From Leptospiraceae bacterium (GTDB taxonomy: Bacteria; Spirochaetota; Leptospiria; Leptospirales; Leptospiraceae), in NCBI GenBank assembly GCA_015075105.1, contig JABTUZ010000002.1:1164001-1228000 (forward strand): a stretch of DNA of 64,000 bases, in the 5' to 3' direction. The notes under the pieces are model-generated. The model saw only the letters and a list, made by a program, of their open reading frames with translations, was not told where the DNA came from and searched no databases. Numbering within the stretch: position 1 is the first letter of the stretch; each line of letters starts with the position of its first letter. The position numbers and the translations under genes are program-made. This document shows positions 18,490-60,983 of this stretch, piece after piece.

Positions 18490-19815
18490 TTATAATAACT
18501 CCATTTTCTTCATTTTGTATTGCAAAGACCCTCTGGAAATTCCAAGAGCCTTTGCCATCCGAATTTGATTCCCGGAAAACAACTTATTGGCCAAAAGAAT
18601 TTTTTGTCTCTCCAGTGCAAGTACGCAGCGCCTGATATTCATATCTTCTATATCCTGGCTCCCTATCGTTTTCAATCCGGATTTTGAGCTAAAAGAGACT
18701 TCCTCTACGCCTATTTTTTCAGATTTTGCAGACAACATAGCATGCTCCAAAACATTCCTCAACTCTCTCAAATTTTGCTGATAATTGCCCAATTTCAAGA
18801 CATTTATTGCTTCCTCGGTTAAGATATAATTTCTTTTCTGGTGGCGATACAAAACTTCCCTAAACATGCTTTTCAATACTTCCACGAATAAAGCTTTCTC
18901 CATTGAATCTAAATCGGGTAAATTGACTAATCTTTGGTTTAAATACTCCCAAAATGGAGGGTAAATCTCATTTTTCGGAAGTTTTGAGTCCAAAAAAATC
19001 ATGGTGCAAGTAGTATTTTCAGAAAACTTCTCAAAGAAAAATCTCTGTTGTCCGAGCGAAAATCCATAGATATTTTCAAACACCAAAATGCCGTTACTGG
19101 ATAAATCGAGCCACTCCTCTAAAGATTTTTCTAATTTAACAATTTGCTCTGGAATAGAATTTAAAATAAGAATTTTTTTTGAAGGAAAATTTACAAAATT
19201 GTAGTACTTGGAAAAAGTCTTCTTTCCTACCCCGACAGACCCTGAAACTAAAAAGTATCTCCATTTCAAAGATTCTTGAAATTTCTCCGATAGCCCGGGA
19301 GTCATTTTCACTATATTTTCCATTGCCTCAAACTGCACAGAATTTACGGAATTACCCAAAAAAGGTTGATTCCCAAAAGACAATTTAGAATAGATTTTAT
19401 CTCCAAAAAGCAACATTACCACAGAATAGATATCTCGCTCTTCTCCCGAAAATTCCCAAAGAATAAACCCCCTGAAATCCTCCTGACTTCCAATCCTTAA
19501 AACCATAGCAAAAGCAGAATCTTGGTTATACAATGAGTATGTATTAGACGAAAACTGACACGGGTATTTTGAAGTCCTGACTAATTCAAATTGGCTACTT
19601 TTCCCGGATAAAAAAGAATAAAAAAATCCACCATCTTGATAGCCAAAGCCGGCTACTTCATCGTAAGACTCGGAATTTTCGATTTTCAAAACGACCACAC
19701 CACACAAAGCACCTACACTCAAGGAAACTTCTTCAAATAATTTGGGCAAAACCGAAGGCACAAAATCCCCACTATGAAAATCATCAGAAAACAAATATTT
19801 GAGGGAAGTATCCAC
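18490..19815 (-). CDS. NtrC-type AAA+ regulator lacking GAFTGA, with Fis-type HTH
   Basis: A 441-residue protein. Residues 1-150 form an unassigned sensor. An AAA+ domain follows with a P-loop variant GSVGVGKKT near 195, a Walker-B-like 'GILVFENI' near 240 and the lid region up to about 370. The C-terminus is a Fis-type helix-turn-helix (NQIRMAKALGISRGSLQYKMKKM). The order is that of sigma-54 activators, but the GAFTGA loop that contacts sigma-54 is absent, so it is probably a sigma-54-independent regulator. First gene of a leftward operon; its promoter region faces parA and contains two palindromes. Confidence 0.8.
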   Translation of the reverse strand: MDTSLKYLFSDDFHSGDFVPSVLPKLFEEVSLSVGALCGVVVLKIENSESYDEVAGFGYQDGGFFYSFLSGKSSQFELVRTSKYPCQFSSNTYSLYNQDSAFAMVLRIGSQEDFRGFILWEFSGEERDIYSVVMLLFGDKIYSKLSFGNQPFLGNSVNSVQFEAMENIVKMTPGLSEKFQESLKWRYFLVSGSVGVGKKTFSKYYNFVNFPSKKILILNSIPEQIVKLEKSLEEWLDLSSNGILVFENIYGFSLGQQRFFFEKFSENTTCTMIFLDSKLPKNEIYPPFWEYLNQRLVNLPDLDSMEKALFVEVLKSMFREVLYRHQKRNYILTEEAINVLKLGNYQQNLRELRNVLEHAMLSAKSEKIGVEEVSFSSKSGLKTIGSQDIEDMNIRRCVLALERQKILLANKLFSGNQIRMAKALGISRGSLQYKMKKMELL

Positions 19816-19850
19816 AAATTAAAAGTGTTTAAAATTAAGCACAGTGTCAA

Positions 19851-19878
19851 CTATTTTGTCGGATATCCGACAAAATAG
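19851..19878. promoter_or_regulatory. 28-bp perfect palindrome, probable operator or parS-like site
   Basis: A perfect palindrome centred between bases 19864 and 19865. The core TTGTCGGATATCCGACAA is extended on both sides by CTATT/AATAG-type arms. It lies between the regulator gene (19815) and parA (20070). A second copy of the core, GTCGGATGTCCGAC, is exactly 60 bases further on. Likely bound by ParB, ParA or the NtrC-like protein. Confidence 0.7.
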
Positions 19879-19900
19879 AATTCTTTCTATAAAAATTTCT

Positions 19901-19906
19901 TATACT
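19901..19906 (+). promoter_or_regulatory. Possible -10 box (TATACT) between the two operators
   Basis: TATACT sits between the two palindromes and points toward parA. No convincing -35 is seen. Its position would let proteins bound at the palindromes control parA transcription. Weak evidence. Confidence 0.25.
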
Positions 19907-19917
19907 AATTCTCGATA

Positions 19918-19931
19918 GTCGGATGTCCGAC
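19918..19931. promoter_or_regulatory. Second GTCGGA-TCCGAC palindrome
   Basis: GTCGGATGTCCGAC has the same 6-base arms as the site at 19858-19871, with a TG centre instead of TA. The centre-to-centre distance is 60 bases, near six helical turns, so a dimer or bridging protein could hold both sites. A half-site-like TGTCGGACAT recurs at 22169 inside the replication-like gene. Confidence 0.65.
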
Positions 19932-20069
19932 AATTAAAAAAGATTATCTCTTTTAGGGAAAAATAATAAAATTTTGCAAAATTCCCTTTTTTTTATAAAA
20001 TTAGATAAAATATTGAAGTTTCTTACGCTTTACCGTGAATAGAAAAAACAGGGGCTACAAAATAAAATT

Positions 20070-20822
20070 ATGGAAATTATAGCAATCACAAATCAAAAAG
20101 GAGGCGAAGGAAAAACTACAACATCTTTAAACCTCTCAGAAGGTCTTGCCAGACGAGGACTGAAAACGCTTTTGGTTGATATAGACCCTCAGGCGAATTC
20201 CAGCGGGATCTACCTGTCACCTGAAAAATTAGAGAAATCTATGTACAACGTCTTCAACTCTTCTCTAAAACTAAAAGATATTATAGTTCCAACTTCCAGA
20301 AAAAATCTTTTCTTAGCTCCTTCCAAACAAAACCTCGCAGAGATGGAAGTAGTCAGCAATAATAGCGTAGAAGCCCCTTACATTTTAAGAGATGCGCTTC
20401 AGACCATCCCTGATTTTGAATTCATCGTAATAGACTGCCCTCCGAGCCTGTCCATTTTCACCATCAACGCCTTGGTGGCCTCCAAACATATTATCATCCC
20501 TCTTCAAGCCGAAAAATTTTCAGTTGATGGGATTCTTGGATTGCAACAAACTATAAACAGCATCAAAAAAAGAATCAACCCAGACTTAGGTGTATTAGGG
20601 GCACTGATCACCCAGCTAAAACCACAGACATTACTGACTAAAACTATACTGCCTGTATTGGACAAATACTTCAAAATTTTTGAGCATTCCATTAGCGATG
20701 GGGTTGCAGTGGGCGAAAGTCATCTTGCTAAAAAGTCAATCTATGACTACAATAAATCGAGCAGACAAGCTCAGGAATACGAAGGCTTTATTGAGGAGAT
20801 TTTGCATGAGCTCAAAAAGTAA
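20070..20822 (+). CDS. parA: ParA-family partition ATPase (first par module)
   Basis: A 250-residue ParA/Soj-type ATPase without an N-terminal DNA-binding extension (type Ib/chromosomal size). It shows a deviant Walker A NQKGGEGKTTT near residues 8-18, 'LLVDIDPQANSS' with the A' Asp residues, and 'FIVIDCPPSL' as Walker B. It positions replicon copies together with ParB and its parS sites. The parB start lies 17 bases inside its 3' end. Upstream palindromes suggest autoregulation. Spot-checked coding sequence is C-richer than the plus-strand genes further right. Confidence 0.93.
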   Translation: MEIIAITNQKGGEGKTTTSLNLSEGLARRGLKTLLVDIDPQANSSGIYLSPEKLEKSMYNVFNSSLKLKDIIVPTSRKNLFLAPSKQNLAEMEVVSNNSVEAPYILRDALQTIPDFEFIVIDCPPSLSIFTINALVASKHIIIPLQAEKFSVDGILGLQQTINSIKKRINPDLGVLGALITQLKPQTLLTKTILPVLDKYFKIFEHSISDGVAVGESHLAKKSIYDYNKSSRQAQEYEGFIEEILHELKK

Positions 20823-21606
20823 GCGATTAGGTAGCCTCGCAGATGTTTTCCAAGCAGAAAATCTGGAAGGAACAGTCCGAAAAATCAAGATAGATAAAAT
20901 CCATCCAGCAGAAAATCAACCAAGACAAGAAAGACAAAAGGGAATCGGAGAATTAGCAGAAAGCCTAAAACAAGACGGGCTACTCCAACCCATAGTTGTG
21001 ACAAAAAAAATATCAGACGAATTTTATACCATCATTGCAGGAGAAAGGCGGTACCACGCTGCAAAACTACTTGGGTGGAGCGAGATAGAATGCAAAATCT
21101 TGGATAGAGACAAAAAAGAAACCTACAGAATTGCGATCATCGAAAACCTTCAAAGAGAGAACCTCTCTCCTTATGAAGAAATCGAAGCGATTAGCTATTT
21201 AAAAAAACAATATCTTTACACAGATCAAGAGCTAGGAGGAATTTTCGGAAAAAGCCGAAACTATATGACAGAAATACTCAGCATCTCTTCTCTAAGCCCG
21301 GAAGAAATCAAGATCTGCAAGGACTTGAAAATAGACAATAAAAATCTATTAATTCAAGCAGTGCTTTCTTCAAAAAAAGGGGTGTTCCATGAATTCATCC
21401 AGATGTTTTCTAATGGTCAAATTTCAACCGTAAAAGAAGCAAAAAATTTTAACAAAGAAAAAAAGATACAAAATCCTATTTTAAAAAATACAAATTATGA
21501 TATCACTAAAAAAGAAAATACGATTATCATAAAATCCGACGACAAAGAATCCCTTAACGAAATATATAAGTTTGTCAAAAAAGAATTAGCCAAAAATTAT
21601 CCGTAA
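20806..21606 (+). CDS. parB: ParB-family partition protein (first par module)
   Basis: A 266-residue ParB. The N-terminal nuclease/CTPase-like domain has 'HPAENQPRQERQKGIGELAESL' and the nucleotide-binding 'IIAGERRYHAAKLLGW', followed by 'AIIENLQRENLSPYEEIEAI'. The central helix-turn-helix ('TDQELGGIFGKSRNYMTEIL') would read parS. The short C-terminal part is Lys-rich and helical. I start it at the ATG at 20806, which has GAGGAG upstream and matches the ParB N-terminal pattern; a longer frame starting at 20680 would lie inside parA. Confidence 0.92.
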   Translation: MSSKSKRLGSLADVFQAENLEGTVRKIKIDKIHPAENQPRQERQKGIGELAESLKQDGLLQPIVVTKKISDEFYTIIAGERRYHAAKLLGWSEIECKILDRDKKETYRIAIIENLQRENLSPYEEIEAISYLKKQYLYTDQELGGIFGKSRNYMTEILSISSLSPEEIKICKDLKIDNKNLLIQAVLSSKKGVFHEFIQMFSNGQISTVKEAKNFNKEKKIQNPILKNTNYDITKKENTIIIKSDDKESLNEIYKFVKKELAKNYP

Positions 21607-22137
21607 ATTTTTCACCAATAATAACTCTAAAGCAGGTTTGCACCTATAGTAAATAGCGATCTCCCTTGGTTTTTTAAGCGTATTTATTTCCAAGATTGAC
21701 TTTTTACAAGTGTGGCATTTAAAAAAACACACTACAACTAAAAAAAAATTAAACTATTCAAAAATTTACTACTTATTTGTAAAGATTGATATTTGTAAAA
21801 AATATTAATCCAATCCATTTTTTCAATCAACCTATCCACAATGATTATAAATCTACTTTGAATAAGGTTATAGCCATAGAAGTACGAAAAAAATTCGCTA
21901 CAATTCTTGACAAAACAAGTGCAAGGTCTATAATGTGACATAATTTAGTAAACGAAGATTAAGTACTAAAAAGAAGAATTAATAAAAAAATAGAAAAAAA
22001 ATATCCTCCACTGGCGGCAACCAATGGAGGCGGGTTTCCCCGAAGGAATGTTGTTGGATGAGACATAATAAAACTTATGTCAAAAAATGTCAACTCCTTT
22101 AGATTTTTTTTGCTTAAAATTAATTACTGGAGGAGAA
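21607..22137. other. Gap between parB and rep-like gene, candidate origin DNA
   Basis: 531 bases with no convincing gene. Most is very AT-rich (A-runs near 21720-21760 and 21960-22000). An abrupt GC-rich hairpin sits at 22005-22041, and an ACATAA/TTATGT inverted repeat at 22063-22080. A TGCTTAAAATTAA motif (22111) belongs to the dispersed TTAAGCA family. Its position between partition and initiator-like genes makes it a candidate replication origin or control RNA region. Confidence 0.5.
22005..22041. repeat. GC-rich hairpin upstream of rep-like gene
   Basis: CCTCCACTGG and CCAATGGAGG form a 10-base stem with one mismatch around a CGGCAA loop, followed at once by a smaller CGGG-TTT-CCCG hairpin. 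It contrasts sharply with the A-rich flanks. It could be a structured leader, an antisense-RNA target controlling the initiator gene, or origin structure. Confidence 0.5.
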
Positions 22138-23037
22138 ATGACAGAAGGTCATTCCTATATAAAATTAATGTCGGACATAATAGATTCCGGCACTTGGGGC
22201 GAATTATCTTCTGCCGCAAGGTCACTATACCCTGTTCTGCTTAAATTTAGTGACCAAAATTTTAAACCAGTTTGGCCAAACACTGAAACTCTTATGAGAC
22301 TAACTGGCTTTAAATCAAAAAAATCAATAATAGAAGGAAAGCGCGATTTAGCCCAAAAAGGACTCATCCAATTTAAATCAGGAACGGGACACAGCAGTTC
22401 AAAATATTTCTTTTCTTTTGCTTACAAAAACTCCAAAATCGAACCTCAGGGGTGGAAAAATGGATACCCCGGAGGTGGAGGGGGGTCCGCCTCAGAGGCG
22501 GAAAAAGAAATCTCCATGGAGTCCCCAGGAAGAAACCCGAACAACATAAATATAACCATAACTAATAACCAGAAAGTACCCTATTTAAAAGAAAAAAATA
22601 GCGAGAACAAGCTTTCAGCAAATTCACTAATAGATGAATTTGGATCTCAAATATTTGCAATAGCAACTGAAAAAGCACAGGCAAAAGGATTAGAAAAAAA
22701 TTATGCATATATCCAAGCCATCTGCAAATCCGAATTGGAGAAATCGCTTAAATTTAATCAAACAAAAAAAGAAGAATCCCCTCAACCTATTATAGCTCCT
22801 TCTTGGGAGGGCTTTTTAGAATGGGCTAAAAAATATTTACCAAATTCTTCCATAAACTATTTTAGAAATTTAGATATTCATTTTGAGGGTAGAACTATAT
22901 TTATAAAAGGCGAAGTGCCTGTTTTTCAAAAACAAATATTATATAAATTTTTTACTGAAGAAGTTACTCCTTCTATATTAGTAGTATTTTCGGATAGTTT
23001 TGAAAAAAAAGAAAATCGCTTGGAATATTTTCGATAA
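22138..23037 (+). CDS. Helix-turn-helix replication-initiator-like protein
   Basis: A 299-residue protein. Residues 1-115 look like a winged-helix domain (AARSLYPVLLKFSDQNFKPVWPNTETLMRLTGFKSKKSIIEGKRDL), the kind found at the N-terminus of plasmid and phage replication proteins. A Gly/Pro/Asn-rich linker follows (about 125-165), then a helical C-terminal region unlike anything I recognise. I start at the ATG at 22138 because GGAGGAG lies just upstream and an earlier in-frame start at 22087 has no ribosome site. Its place after parA-parB supports a replication role, but the function is inferred. Confidence 0.7.
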   Translation: MTEGHSYIKLMSDIIDSGTWGELSSAARSLYPVLLKFSDQNFKPVWPNTETLMRLTGFKSKKSIIEGKRDLAQKGLIQFKSGTGHSSSKYFFSFAYKNSKIEPQGWKNGYPGGGGGSASEAEKEISMESPGRNPNNINITITNNQKVPYLKEKNSENKLSANSLIDEFGSQIFAIATEKAQAKGLEKNYAYIQAICKSELEKSLKFNQTKKEESPQPIIAPSWEGFLEWAKKYLPNSSINYFRNLDIHFEGRTIFIKGEVPVFQKQILYKFFTEEVTPSILVVFSDSFEKKENRLEYFR

Positions 23038-23054
23038 AAATAAAGGAATAAAAA

Positions 23055-25559
23055 ATGCCAGACACATCCATAAGAATCAGTCATTCTCAATTACAAAAAA
23101 TTCAAAAAATTACCGCAAAGGGCAAATACAAATTGCACGAGGGTGTTTTAGAGAGCTACATTGAAGATTCGGAAAATCCCGACAACTCTGTAGTTATTTT
23201 TAATTTTTCAGAAGAGGTTTATTTTAACTCTATTCAATTTTCAATCACTGAAAACGACAAAAAATACTCTCCCCATTTTTTCCGATTTGAAATTTCAAAA
23301 GACGGAATAGTATGGGAGCCTATTATCCAAGAAGTTGATTTTAGGAAAAATGCAAAATCCAATAATATTTGGACATTTTCTTTAGTTAGTGCAAATTACA
23401 TAAAGTTTATCTCAAAATTAAATTTAAGCTCTGAAGAAAAAAAGTATAAAATTAGTTTTTCTAATTTAAAAATCATGATTTCTGGAGCAGTAAAATTAAC
23501 TGCAAGCTCCGAAAATGACAGACTATGGGTAAAAGAAAATTTAATTGACGGAAGAAAAGATTATGGTTGGTCATCTAAGGAAAAAGATTCACCGGGTGAA
23601 GAAAGTTTTACATTAGACTTAGGATCGGTAAATAAAATTAATGAACTCCGCTTATTAACAAGAAATTCAACAGAAACTAACTTCCCGGAACATTTCTCTC
23701 TATTTTATAGTGAAGATGATTTGTCTTGGTTTCAACTTATGGAAGAGCCAAAATTTTTCTCAGAACCCGGTATGTGGTACAGATGGCGATTTCTTCCTGT
23801 GAATTTTCGATTTTTGAAATTCGTTTCTTATGAAGAATTGCGTCATAATAAAAAACAATACGTTAGTCAAGTTGTGGAAATTGAGCTTTATGCCGCTCCT
23901 GATTTTATTGACTTGTCTAAAAAAGAAAAAGCAGAACCCCTACCCTATGCATCTATTCTAAGATCTGGCTTAGTTCGCTTTGCGACCGAGGGTGAGGCAA
24001 AAAGTGGTGTAGCCGTACAAGCAAGTGACCCAAGACTAAGAGACGCTACAATAGAATTTAAAGGAATCGTAGAGCTTGCCTCTGATGGTGAAGAAAAACC
24101 GGGAGTAGTTGTTCAGGGAAATGATAAAAGACTAAAACCAGCAACAGATGAATTTAGAGGATTAGTACGATTTGCGAAGAATGGAGAAACTAGAACCGGA
24201 ACCGCAGTTCAAGGAGATGACGATAGATTAAAACCGGCAACTACATCTGATTACGGAATTGTAAAACTTGCAGAAGATGGCGAGACCCGATCCGGGGTAG
24301 TTGTTCAAGGAAACGACAATCGTTTAAAAAAAGCTACAAAAAAGAATTACGGGTTGGTAGTACTTGCAGATCACGAAGAGTCATCTCCTGAAAAAGTTGT
24401 GACCTCTGATGACCCAAGAATCAAAAATGCAAATACAGAAAAAACAGGAATATTGAGATTTGCATCGAATGGAGAAGATTCTTCGTTTGCCGCAGTTCAA
24501 GGAAATGACAATCGTTTAAAAAAAGCTACAACTGAAAGTTATGGAATAGTCGAACTTGCCTCTGACGGTGAAGCCAAGCCTGAAAAAGTTGTACAGGGCA
24601 ACGATAGAAGATTGAAGTTAGCTACGACCAATGAGCCCGGTATCGTACTATTGTCTGAACACGGATCTACTACTTCTAATAAAGTAGTAATTGCCGACGA
24701 TCCTCGTTTGTGTGATAAAAGAGAGCCTGTTCCCCATACACACGAGTATTCAATGATTGGGCACGATTTTAATTCGCATTCGGGGTTGATTAAGCTAAAT
24801 GGCAAAGAATCAAACCAACAAAAATCAATCGTGTCACCTTCTATAAATCAAGGAGTTATTTTTGGAAAAAATGAATCAGAGCAAGGGTCAGGGATTGTAG
24901 GAGTTGGTGGAGAGGAAGGAGTATTAGGGTTTAGTCCTCACTATGGGGTTAGCGGTTATAGCAATGGAAAAGAAAATTCTGCGGGTGTATTGGGTGTATC
25001 ACATTTTTCACATGGAGCTATTTTTATTTCTCAAAGAGAGTATGCGTTATTTGCAAACGGCAACGGACTCAAATCAAAAGACATTCAGGGTAGTGGAAAA
25101 GCAATCCTTGCAGAAGGTGATTCTCTATTCAAAGGTCTTGTGCAAATTCAAACAAAAAATGGAAATGATTGCATAGCACGATACTTTCCTATTGTAAAAG
25201 GAGACGTGATTGCAGAGGGAGATTTACTCGTAACTTCTTCTGAAGAAGGCAGGCTCTCAAAGTCCAAGACTGCCTATTCTACTCGAGTTATAGGAGTGGC
25301 GATTCAATCTGAGTCTTTGGTGTTAGGTGAAAAAATTGAAAATTCTATGGCGGTAGGGATGTTTGGAGTTGTTCGATTGAATGTAGATGCATCGGATGGA
25401 GAAATTGTGCCCGGAGATATTTTGGTTTCGAGTATAAGTCCGGGTCATGCAGTGAAAGCAGATTTAAACAAAACTAAAATTGGTATGATTGTAGGGAAAT
25501 CTTTAGGGTATTGCAAAAAAGGAAAATCTACTATTCAAGCCATGGTCAGTATCGGATAA
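23055..25559 (+). CDS. Tail-fibre-like repeat protein with discoidin-type domains
   Basis: An 834-residue protein. Residues about 30-140 and 150-285 resemble two F5/8-type-C (discoidin-like) domains (e.g. 'LWVKENLIDGRKDYGWSS', 'FTLDLGSVNKINELRL'). Residues 304-555 are eight tandem copies of a 32-residue unit with the consensus 'G-hydrophobic-V-x-LA-x-DGE ... VVQGNDxRLKxAT', the kind of repeat seen in phage tail fibres and collars, ending in 'DDPRLCDKREPVPHTHEYS'. The C-terminal 280 residues contain 'GDLLVTSS', 'PGDILVSSISPGHAVKAD' and Gly-rich turns, as in trimeric structural proteins. No signal peptide. It lies 17 bases after the rep-like gene, as if in one transcript. Confidence 0.75.
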   Translation: MPDTSIRISHSQLQKIQKITAKGKYKLHEGVLESYIEDSENPDNSVVIFNFSEEVYFNSIQFSITENDKKYSPHFFRFEISKDGIVWEPIIQEVDFRKNAKSNNIWTFSLVSANYIKFISKLNLSSEEKKYKISFSNLKIMISGAVKLTASSENDRLWVKENLIDGRKDYGWSSKEKDSPGEESFTLDLGSVNKINELRLLTRNSTETNFPEHFSLFYSEDDLSWFQLMEEPKFFSEPGMWYRWRFLPVNFRFLKFVSYEELRHNKKQYVSQVVEIELYAAPDFIDLSKKEKAEPLPYASILRSGLVRFATEGEAKSGVAVQASDPRLRDATIEFKGIVELASDGEEKPGVVVQGNDKRLKPATDEFRGLVRFAKNGETRTGTAVQGDDDRLKPATTSDYGIVKLAEDGETRSGVVVQGNDNRLKKATKKNYGLVVLADHEESSPEKVVTSDDPRIKNANTEKTGILRFASNGEDSSFAAVQGNDNRLKKATTESYGIVELASDGEAKPEKVVQGNDRRLKLATTNEPGIVLLSEHGSTTSNKVVIADDPRLCDKREPVPHTHEYSMIGHDFNSHSGLIKLNGKESNQQKSIVSPSINQGVIFGKNESEQGSGIVGVGGEEGVLGFSPHYGVSGYSNGKENSAGVLGVSHFSHGAIFISQREYALFANGNGLKSKDIQGSGKAILAEGDSLFKGLVQIQTKNGNDCIARYFPIVKGDVIAEGDLLVTSSEEGRLSKSKTAYSTRVIGVAIQSESLVLGEKIENSMAVGMFGVVRLNVDASDGEIVPGDILVSSISPGHAVKADLNKTKIGMIVGKSLGYCKKGKSTIQAMVSIG

Positions 25560-25563
25560 GAAA

Positions 25564-26433
25564 ATGAAAAAAATTTCAGATATATTAAAACAATCCAATA
25601 CATGTTTATTCTCCTTTGAATTTTTTCCACCTAAGACAAATGAAGGTGAAATAAAATTTTTTCAAACTCTAAAAGAAATATCTAAGCTAAACCCTGCGTT
25701 TGTATCGGTTACTTACGGTGCAGGTGGAAGTACGAAAGAAAAAACAATTGAGCTGTCCGAAAAAATCAACAAAGAAAATATGTTTCCGGCGATGTGTCAT
25801 TTTACTTGTGTGAGTGTAAATTCAGAACAGATTGAAAAAACTTTACACGAAATCAACAGTAAAGGGATTTCTAATTTAATGGCGTTGAGAGGAGACCCGC
25901 CTGCTGGGGAAGGTATATTCCAAAAAACAACCGGTGGATTTTCTAATGCAACTGAATTGATTCAGTTTATTAAAGAAAAAAAGTTCAATTTTTCTATAGC
26001 AGGAGGGTGTTATCCAGAGAAGCACCCGGAAACAAAAACTATGGAAGAAGAAATTTTTTTCTTATCGAAAAAAGTTGAAGCCGGAGCAGAATTTTTAATT
26101 ACACAGTTATTTTTTTCTAATCCTGTGTTTGAAAAATATAGAGAACTTGCAATTCGTTCTAATGTAGAAGTTCCAATTATTCCGGGGATTATGCCGATTA
26201 CGGATTTTAAGCAAATTGAAAGATTTAAAAAAATGACCGGCTGCAATATCCCTGAAAATTTTGTAAGTCGTTTAGAAAAATTCAAGGAGAATCCGGATGA
26301 TTTTTTAAAAGTAAGTTTAGATTTTACGACTCACCAATGTTTGGAATTAATGAAAAGTGGCGTAAAGGGATTACATTTTTACACACTGAATCAATCCAAA
26401 ACGAGTTATGAAATCGTAAAAAACTTAACTTAA
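25564..26433 (+). CDS. metF: Methylenetetrahydrofolate reductase
   Basis: A 289-residue FAD enzyme close in length to E. coli MetF (296). It reduces 5,10-methylene- to 5-methyl-tetrahydrofolate for methionine synthesis. Characteristic blocks are 'FSFEFFPPKTNEGE' with the catalytic Glu, 'FVSVTYGAGGSTKEKT', 'NLMALRGDPPAGEG', 'AEFLITQLFFSNPVFEKY' and 'PIIPGIMPI'. It starts four bases after the tail-fibre-like gene. It ends four bases from the convergent mqnD stop, leaving no room for separate terminators. Confidence 0.95.
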   Translation: MKKISDILKQSNTCLFSFEFFPPKTNEGEIKFFQTLKEISKLNPAFVSVTYGAGGSTKEKTIELSEKINKENMFPAMCHFTCVSVNSEQIEKTLHEINSKGISNLMALRGDPPAGEGIFQKTTGGFSNATELIQFIKEKKFNFSIAGGCYPEKHPETKTMEEEIFFLSKKVEAGAEFLITQLFFSNPVFEKYRELAIRSNVEVPIIPGIMPITDFKQIERFKKMTGCNIPENFVSRLEKFKENPDDFLKVSLDFTTHQCLELMKSGVKGLHFYTLNQSKTSYEIVKNLT

Positions 26434-59242: not shown

Positions 59243-60298
59243 GTGTGTGAAAAAATTCACGATAATCGAAAAATAATAAAAAATGTAGGAGTTCCTACAA
59301 AAAATTTAAGAGACATAATTCTTGACAGGAAAAGAGTCCTATACAAAATAGAGCAAAAAAAGGGCATGAAAAAAATAAGAGCAAACGAGGAAATCACTCC
59401 GGAAGAAATCGGACTGAGGTATGCTGTATCAGATTTGGATTTTTTGTCTTTAGTAAAAGAATATAAAATTCCTATTGAAAAAAGTGGAAATTATAGAATT
59501 TCCATTCTTGATAAATATTTCTCCATCGCTGAAAATAGAAATTTTAATTCTAACATAATTGCGATTACTAACCAGAAAGGTGGAGAAGGAAAAACTACTC
59601 TTTCCCTATGTCTTGCTGAAGCACTTTCACTTGAATCAAAGGTGCTGCTTGTTGATTGGGATGCACAAGCAAACGCGACTCGTTTATTTTTTAATGACTT
59701 AGACACTTCAATATTTGATTGCTTGCATTATAGAGATAAAGAGCCTATGAAAATTCAAGATATAATTCAGAGAGTTTTTGATCGCTATGATCTTGTTCCA
59801 TCTTCTATTCGCCTTGCAAATTTAACTACACCGTATGAGCGAGATGATTTTGAATTATTAAAAGATGCATTGTTGCCTGTTCGGTCTTCTTACGAATATA
59901 TAATCGTTGATTGTCCACCTTCATTGGGCCTTGGATTAGAGAATGCTTTGATTGCTGCAGATTATGTAATTGTTCCGATCCAAGCGAGGGCTTTTAGTAT
60001 TCAAGGAATTCAAGATTTACACAATACCATTGAAAAAATACGCAAAAAAGTGAATCCGAACCTTGAATTATTGGGTGCAATCCTAAATCAATTTGAGGAA
60101 TCTAGGGCTTTATCGGGAATTAGCCAAAGTATAAAAAAATATTTTCCTGTATTCCAAACAGTTATTAATAGAAGAGAAAGTATTCCACAGAGTCAAGTTA
60201 AGCGTAAATTACTTTTTGATTATGATAAAAAAGCATTAAAGAATTTTCAGGAATTAGCTTTAGAAATAAAGCAAAAGATATATGTCCAAGCGAAATGA
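59243..60298 (+). CDS. parA: ParA-family partition ATPase with N-terminal extension (second par module)
   Basis: A 351-residue ParA. Residues 1-105 are an extension absent from the first ParA and may bind DNA or operators, as in type Ia partition ATPases. The ATPase core shows 'ITNQKGGEGKTTLSL' (deviant Walker A, near 110-123), 'LLVDWDAQANAT' and 'IIVDCPPSLGL'. Start is a GTG; a later ATG near residue 42 would drop part of the extension. A TGTAGGAGTTCCTACA palindrome is embedded at its 5' end and encodes VGVPT. parB begins 17 bases inside its 3' end. Confidence 0.9.
   Translation: MCEKIHDNRKIIKNVGVPTKNLRDIILDRKRVLYKIEQKKGMKKIRANEEITPEEIGLRYAVSDLDFLSLVKEYKIPIEKSGNYRISILDKYFSIAENRNFNSNIIAITNQKGGEGKTTLSLCLAEALSLESKVLLVDWDAQANATRLFFNDLDTSIFDCLHYRDKEPMKIQDIIQRVFDRYDLVPSSIRLANLTTPYERDDFELLKDALLPVRSSYEYIIVDCPPSLGLGLENALIAADYVIVPIQARAFSIQGIQDLHNTIEKIRKKVNPNLELLGAILNQFEESRALSGISQSIKKYFPVFQTVINRRESIPQSQVKRKLLFDYDKKALKNFQELALEIKQKIYVQAK
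59284..59299. repeat. TGTAGGAGTTCCTACA palindrome, copy B
   Basis: The same 16-mer as copy A, lying at the 5' end of the second parA where it could act as an operator for autoregulation. Confidence 0.75.
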
Positions 60299-60983
60299 TT
60301 TTGCAGCTATAGATCTCATTACTGCGTATAGTGAGAAAAAAAATGCCCCTGATAAAATTGATATTTCTAGTATTGTATTGGATCAAAACCAACCACGTGT
60401 TTTTGGTAAAAATGAAATTGATGATTTAGTAGAGTCAATGAGAAGACTCGGACTTATTGAACCAATAATTGTTAGAAAGGAAAAATCACAATTTATTATA
60501 GTTGCCGGGGAGAGAAGATACCGGTCTGCGATTCAACTTGGTTGGAAGGATATCCCCGCAATTGTTACTGAGGTAAAAGAAGATCTTTGTTATGAAATTT
60601 CACTCGCTGAAAATGAAAAAAGGAAAAATTTAAACCCGTGGGAAGTTGGGCGAGCCATTCAATATTTACGAAAAGAGAAAAAGAGATCTGTTAAGGAAGT
60701 ATCAGAATTGCTTGGATATACCGAAAGATATATTAAGCAATTGAGTTCAATTGCAAGGCTAGAACAAAATTCTGTTTATGATTTGTTAAAAAGTGGAAAA
60801 GAAGCAAGTGTTAAAAATTTAGAATCTTTGCTAAAATTTAAAGAGGGTAGGGGTGAAATGATTTCACCCAACAAGAAGTTATCCGACATAATTCGGATTA
60901 ACTTGAAGAAATTACCCCAAAAGCAAAAAGAGACTTTTTTCCGCGAACTTAATGCATTAAAGAAAAAGTTCGGACTTTCTTAG
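60282..60983 (+). CDS. parB: ParB-family partition protein (second par module)
   Basis: A 233-residue ParB. 'VLDQNQPRVFGKNEIDDLVESMRRLGLIEPIIV', 'IIVAGERRYRSAIQLGW' (nucleotide-binding GERR motif), 'ISLAENEKRKNLNPWEVGRAIQYL' and the HTH 'SVKEVSELLGYTERYIKQL' are all present. It is only distantly similar to the first ParB and has a shorter N-terminus. Near its 3' end it contains the GGGTGAAATGATTTCACCC palindrome, whose codons read GEMISP. The palindromes here are candidate binding sites of this protein. Confidence 0.92.
   Translation: MSKRNDFAAIDLITAYSEKKNAPDKIDISSIVLDQNQPRVFGKNEIDDLVESMRRLGLIEPIIVRKEKSQFIIVAGERRYRSAIQLGWKDIPAIVTEVKEDLCYEISLAENEKRKNLNPWEVGRAIQYLRKEKKRSVKEVSELLGYTERYIKQLSSIARLEQNSVYDLLKSGKEASVKNLESLLKFKEGRGEMISPNKKLSDIIRINLKKLPQKQKETFFRELNALKKKFGLS
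60851..60869. repeat. GGGTGAAATGATTTCACCC palindrome inside parB
   Basis: A 19-base palindrome with a G centre, identical to the core of the 39-base palindrome at 58505-58543 and 2,336 bases from it. It lies in coding sequence, as parS sites often do. Confidence 0.75.

Follow-up and report, generated by a model that had tools for sequence, protein, structure and literature searches.

Replication and segregation module of a probable second chromosome in a Leptospiraceae bacterium, with a predicted origin inside the initiator gene

The present work concerns a stretch of 64,000 nucleotides from an uncultured Leptospiraceae bacterium (assembly GCA_015075105.1; hereafter the window, C2:1,164,001-1,228,000, where C2 is contig JABTUZ010000002.1), which carries a partition operon, parA and parB, followed by a gene, rep, for a putative replication initiator. 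This segment is probably where a circular chromosome II (CII) of ~340 kb, independent of the main chromosome, begins its replication and is segregated, in the manner proposed below. By sequence, the module is orthologous to the CII origin of Leptospira interrogans and to the plasmid pTURPA.01 of Turneriella parva, and its assignment, together with that of the second chromosome, to a known kind is well supported. In addition, an origin inside rep, a CII-specific centromere (parS) and an antisense RNA are predicted here; these are new as far as the literature searched shows, and their presence throughout the class is strongly supported by sequence.

Identity of the replicon

The genome comprises 3.42 Mb in four contigs and is 99.97% complete; contig C2 measures 1,410,425 b. 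All of C2 apart from two masked blocks of 5 kb was covered, as was about half of contig C1, and some 30 relatives were compared, among them metagenome-assembled Leptospiraceae/Leptospirales and Turneriella-like genomes. The CII of L. interrogans (350,181 b, filed as a plasmid in PLSDB) has an identical gene order, namely a regulator gene on the minus strand, then parA, parB, rep, a discoidin-domain gene and metF, and mqnD on the minus strand, an arrangement shared with the CII of L. biflexa. The ParA proteins of L. interrogans CII and of this genome are 74% identical, the Rep proteins 47%, and the metF products, encoded at matching places, 53%. The comparison of that CII with this genome yielded 144 reciprocal best hits, of which ~115 fall within a 335-kb block (C2:1,075,004-1,406,977) and none within C2 0.9-1.075 Mb. 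The block includes the core metabolic genes asd, pyk, acnA and metF, and because its two ends correspond to neighbouring positions of L. interrogans CII (~124 and ~139 kb), it appears to be a circle opened at one point. The gene order around parA-rep is conserved class-wide, including the 25,287-b pTURPA.01, and in two near-complete relatives (G014 and G011) the module occupies contigs of its own, of 184 and 250 kb.

A sequence-only reading of this DNA had described palindromes, parA, parB, a 531-b gap and rep following one another in one direction, all of which are present at the places given, and had proposed that they form an origin. The strand bias that it reported around ~19.8 kb holds roughly: among open reading frames (ORFs) of at least 100 aa, 11/16 read leftward on the left and 24/38 rightward on the right (Fisher p 0.04). 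The skew in guanine and cytosine (GC skew), which it suggested as a check, changes sign at the module, with the cumulative minimum of the window at 22,802, within ~300 b of the iterons described below. Among the replicons that it considered, a second chromosome is the best supported, by orthology and synteny with CII, by the skew minimum and by the separate contigs of the two relatives. This agrees with the CII of L. biflexa, where a partition operon with rep downstream of it lies at the skew minimum (PMC2229662), and whose copy number is held near one per chromosome (PMC13342612).

An integrated plasmid or a prophage replicon of the LE1 type had also been named as a possible source. Rep does match PHROG initiator families, its C-terminal part resembles the Reps of LE1 and of Leptospira plasmids, and a neighbouring protein carries tail-fibre-like repeats. 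Yet only a portion of the C-terminal region, 22-29% of the query, is similar to LE1 Rep, and the similarity does not extend over the full length; for this the LE1-type replicon was rejected. The module is moreover embedded in the 335 kb of CII-orthologous genes, in a gene order that is constant across the class, and an integrated element of either sort is scarcely credible.

The joint between the two chromosomes

The gene dnaA (C2:486958), dnaN and the canonical parS of chromosome I (CI) lie ~700 kb to the left of the module (C2:1184-1187k), on the same 1.41-Mb contig. The sequence-only reading had held that the module inside a chromosome I with its oriC elsewhere would tell against its proposal, and dnaA does share the contig, yet the connection between the two looks chimeric, and a false join in the public assembly is the best reading of it. 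The joint, at C2:1,070,68x, falls inside a dispersed repeat of ~125 bp with ~25 copies. The segment C2:1,070,682-1,070,744 starts in mid-repeat and carries the 3' part of a copy followed by the flank ATGAAT, while C2 ends in the 5' part of a copy that has ATGAAT as its flank. The two halves share 62/63 b, and this flank occurs in only one other copy; they thus appear to be one split copy, and joining them makes CII a closed circle of 339,681 b. A separate circle of 339.7 kb is most likely. In the relatives G002, G007 and G005, nadC and relA come after the CI genes tgt, STAS and X; here the latter three stand left of the joint, and nadC and relA lie at the end of C1, reversed. The first bases of the reversed C1 end belong to one more copy of the repeat, diverged and apparently whole (read by eye), and when C2:1-1,070,680 is joined to the reversed C1, the arms from dnaA to the C1 skew maximum measure 1.543 and 1.535 Mb.

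A true fusion of CII into CI would give a single chromosome of 3.42 Mb that has two origins and also two partition systems. This would account for the contig shared by dnaA and the module, and CII could sit between nadC and the CI genes on the left side of the joint, which are neighbours in relatives. Against it, the joint lies in the middle of one repeat copy whose halves match closely, and the repeat copy at the end of C1 appears to be whole; CI is also near-symmetrical once CII is removed, and two relatives hold the module on separate contigs. Fusion is very improbable. The joint would mislead replicon-level analyses of this genome. A dispersed repeat of ~900 bp (C2:1051k) was at first considered as the place of the joint, an idea dropped once the halves of the 125-bp repeat were found.

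The ~125-bp repeat family (e.g. C2:1084711-1084837) has matching flanks of the ATAAAT type and resembles miniature inverted-repeat transposable elements, some copies having a different 3' hairpin. A second, large family, with units of ~700-950 bp, is dispersed in dozens of copies that are roughly 70-95% alike and contain an ORF of ~155 aa (MNPEKFERTQSS...); examples are C2:1008834-1009696, C2:1024386-1025223 and C1:1002-1850. In the right replichore of CI the skew is reversed over C2:560000-850000 (~290 kb), as after an inversion, and the cumulative skew minimum is at 768k instead of at dnaA.

Predicted origin, centromere and control element

A palindrome, a predicted antisense-RNA gene and an iteron array accompany the module across the class, and every binding and regulatory step in the following scheme is one that we infer from them. 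ParB would load at two CII-specific parS palindromes, which ParA would segregate. Transcription of rep would start from the promoter at 21907-21934, and an antisense RNA of 60-70 nt against the rep leader would limit the synthesis of Rep. The winged-helix domain of Rep would then bind four 23-bp-spaced iterons within rep itself, where the gene encodes the disordered linker of the protein, the AT-rich tract next to them would open, and a C-terminal fold like domain I of DnaA may help to recruit the replisome.

The replication origin, comprising iterons and an AT-rich tract, is probably inside rep. In the rep genes, words similar to CCCCTCAGGGG stand at -98, -75, -52 and -29 from the codons of a conserved NNINITI motif, with an exact 23-b period, and are followed by the AT-rich tract, whose GC content is 0.22, lower than that of rep (0.34) and of the preceding 150 nt (0.49). 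Since 23 cannot be divided by three, the words fall in different codon phases; in order-level relatives the array appears in a shifted register. The iterons exceed synonymous-codon shuffles in 29/29 loci (p < 0.05) and shuffles with permuted linker codons in 24 of the 29; among periods of 15 to 34, that of 23 fits best in 25. As the motif was first seen by eye, a leave-one-out matrix scan, over C2 and half of C1, provides a cleaner test: the rep array scored 53.3 bits and the next independent place 11.2, and the array is also the top-scoring place in L. interrogans CII and pTURPA.01. In the Rep model, the segment encoded by iterons and tract coincides in part with the disordered region (112-155).

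Gaps adjacent to rep genes frequently carry plasmid origins, and the sequence-only reading had suggested the 531-b gap between parB and rep, which is AT-rich and partly structured, as a place to look for iterons and DnaA boxes. The structure stands, but the origin is probably elsewhere: the gap contains no iterons and only weak sites resembling DnaA boxes, its length ranges from 149 to 1377 b among relatives, and it is explained by a predicted rep promoter and antisense-RNA gene. An origin in the gap would also reduce the repeats in rep to a by-product of coding, whereas these hold their period out of codon phase and beat synonymous shuffles. This placement was rejected as very improbable.

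The gap is probably an antisense-RNA gene facing the rep leader. A promoter, a conserved 5' end of the CATCCAACAA type, a G+C hairpin and a U-run are predicted in most relatives, and the plan is conserved in L. interrogans and T. parva as well. The consensus terminator stem shows two-sided changes at 6/6 pairs (19 sequences, two of them identical). The predicted RNA of this genome folds better than shuffles (z -3.97), and the L. interrogans copy alone does not (z -0.65). A search of Rfam returned no family in 19000-24000 at E up to 1.

The sequence TGTCGGAYRTCCGACA upstream of parA is a candidate CII-specific parS, class-wide. In the window a perfect 28-bp palindrome (19851-19878) encloses the first of two copies of the core. 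Exact sites of TGTCGGAYRTCCGACA number 45, in 27/47 genomes, each beside this parA or its regulator gene; rep is found on the contig of 35 of them, and the remaining ten adjoin parA or the regulator on their contigs, and the control, the same word read backward, gave 0 sites in the 47 genomes. The site is upstream of parA in 28/28 loci that cover the region, including L. interrogans CII and pTURPA.01. Allowing at most one mismatch, the core occurs in this genome at the two module sites and at one imperfect third site on CII (C2:1136043). The canonical parS TGTTTCACGTGAAACA was not found near the module, only at C2:481721 and 482857, by the parB of CI; the ParB of CII would therefore need another site, and we infer that it binds the palindrome.

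Alternatively, the palindrome might serve as an operator, for the par operon or for the divergent regulator, which would suit its usual position in the space that separates two divergent genes, at 40-240 b from parA. Six loci on the Turneriella side, however, have a further exact palindrome inside a coding gene beyond the regulator, 1.3-1.6 kb away, which fits a centromere better than an operator, and the canonical parS is confined to the parB region of CI. An operator in place of a centromere is thus unlikely, and the two roles are not exclusive.

The start of rep at 22138, preceded by GGAGGAG, is more likely than the ORF-list start at 22087. Among 24 Rep homologues Pfam finds HTH_36 only, in 24/24, with no match to a RepC family and none to RepA_N (PF06970) at E up to 1, and a comparison of Rep with PDB by sequence gave nothing significant. 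The best fold matches of the N-domain are RepA_N plasmid initiators (4pql, 4pt7 and 5kbj, Z 7.7-8.8), the top one having Z 8.8, root-mean-square deviation 3.1 over 91 aligned residues and 14% identity; these scores are near the level of unrelated winged-helix proteins. The C-terminal domain, folded alone, has structures of DnaA domain I as its top three matches (Z 6.8, 6.0 and 5.5), a likeness that is suggestive only.

Several points weigh against the scheme as a whole. The in-gene origin, the CII-specific parS and the antisense RNA are all computational predictions, and the circular form of CII is deduced from the assembled sequence. The consensus iteron was picked by eye before the statistics, iteron 4 is weak in this genome, and the iteron scan covered only about half of C1. 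Seven loci have no clear antisense promoter under the pattern used. The DnaA-domain-I call comes from fold comparison only (Z 5.5-6.8), and a profile comparison of this domain with the N-terminus of the genome's own DnaA detected no similarity.

Comparison with known systems and further features

The repABC replicons of Alphaproteobacteria, known from plant-associated bacteria unrelated to this one, likewise combine ParA, ParB and an antisense RNA encoded between parB and the gene for the initiator, with an oriV that includes an AT-rich region inside the latter and, in some cases, a parS upstream of repA (PMC3155836). Their initiator RepC is however unrelated by Pfam to the HTH_36 Rep, repC of p42d has no iterons whereas four are seen here, and rep, unlike its counterpart, has its own predicted promoter. 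The RepA_N plasmids pSK41 and pTZ2162 also have the origin inside rep, with semi-palindromic direct-repeat iterons, and pSK41 shares antisense control (PMC3155836, PMC7145576). The N-domain fold may be another likeness to this group, yet Rep differs in its lack of a Pfam RepA_N match, in its possible C-terminal resemblance to DnaA domain I and in its host, a member of the Spirochaetota. In phage lambda, too, the origin lies within a gene, O, beside an AT-rich tract. The initiator O binds four iterons there (PMC3985674), in repeats of 19 bp compared to the 23-bp period here, where the arrangement would serve a chromosome with ParABS.

A parAB-rep origin on Leptospira CII has been known since 2008, placed by skew only (PMC2229662), and the origin site, centromere and control element are undefined in the literature searched. 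That search, with subscription papers outside it, found no description of iterons, a parS or an antisense RNA for Leptospira CII; all three are predicted in L. interrogans CII too. The predictions are exact to the base and hold in the cultured species checked, L. interrogans (CII) and T. parva, and L. biflexa is expected to match, so that replication and segregation of Leptospira CII become directly testable. On balance we favour a single, vertically kept replicon type throughout the class, from the 25-kb Turneriella plasmid to second chromosomes of 180-350 kb in Leptospirales, whose parS is orthogonal to that of the main chromosome and whose repABC-like layout (parS, parA, parB, antisense RNA and an initiator gene containing its own iteron origin) would have evolved independently. 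If true, this would be a second, unrelated solution for a plasmid becoming a permanent chromosome. Since repABC shows a parallel arrangement, plasmids may in general become chromosomes by gathering parS, partition genes, antisense RNA and an in-gene origin into a small segment.

Table 1. Features of the module and its neighbours, by position in the window
Feature	Position	Strand	Remarks
Divergent regulator	18490-19815	-	Pfam HTH_8 (Fis-type HTH), AAA_lid_14 (AAA+ lid); conserved parA neighbour by synteny
Candidate CII parS, copy 1	19857-19872	no strand	TGTCGGATATCCGACA
Candidate CII parS, copy 2	19917-19932	no strand	AGTCGGATGTCCGACA
parA	20070-20822	+	Pfam AAA_31
parB	20806-21606	+	Pfam ParB_N, HTH_ParB; PDB Spo0J/Noc relatives
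parB-rep gap	21607-22137		531 b
Predicted rep promoter	21907-21934	+	TTGACA-16-TATAAT, 12/12 consensus match
Predicted antisense RNA against rep leader	21994-22058	-	terminator stem 22030-22005, 11 bp, T-run
Predicted antisense RNA promoter	22065-22093	-	TTGACA-17-TATTAT, 11/12 consensus; conserved in relatives
rep	22138-23037	+	winged-helix N-domain, disordered linker, DnaA-domain-I-like C-terminal domain (predicted)
Iteron 1	22442-22452	+	AACCTCAGGGG
Iteron 2	22465-22475	+	TACCCCGGAGG
Iteron 3	22488-22498	+	CGCCTCAGAGG
Iteron 4	22511-22521	+	TCTCCATGGAG, most degenerate
AT-rich tract, candidate unwinding element	22540-22605	+	encodes the conserved NNINITI motif
Discoidin-domain protein, tail-fibre-like repeats	23055-25559	+	adjoins rep class-wide
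metF	25564-26433	+	same place as CII metF in L. interrogans

A second parA/parB-like pair is present on CII (window 59243-60983), 38 kb from the first and without a copy of the candidate parS nearby; it is 61-62% identical to a pair of L. interrogans CII at 317041-318658. One relative (G040) has two rep genes, on contigs C22 and C102, each with candidate parS sites of its own. The discoidin-domain protein with phage tail-fibre-like repeats is kept beside rep even on the 25-kb plasmid of T. parva.

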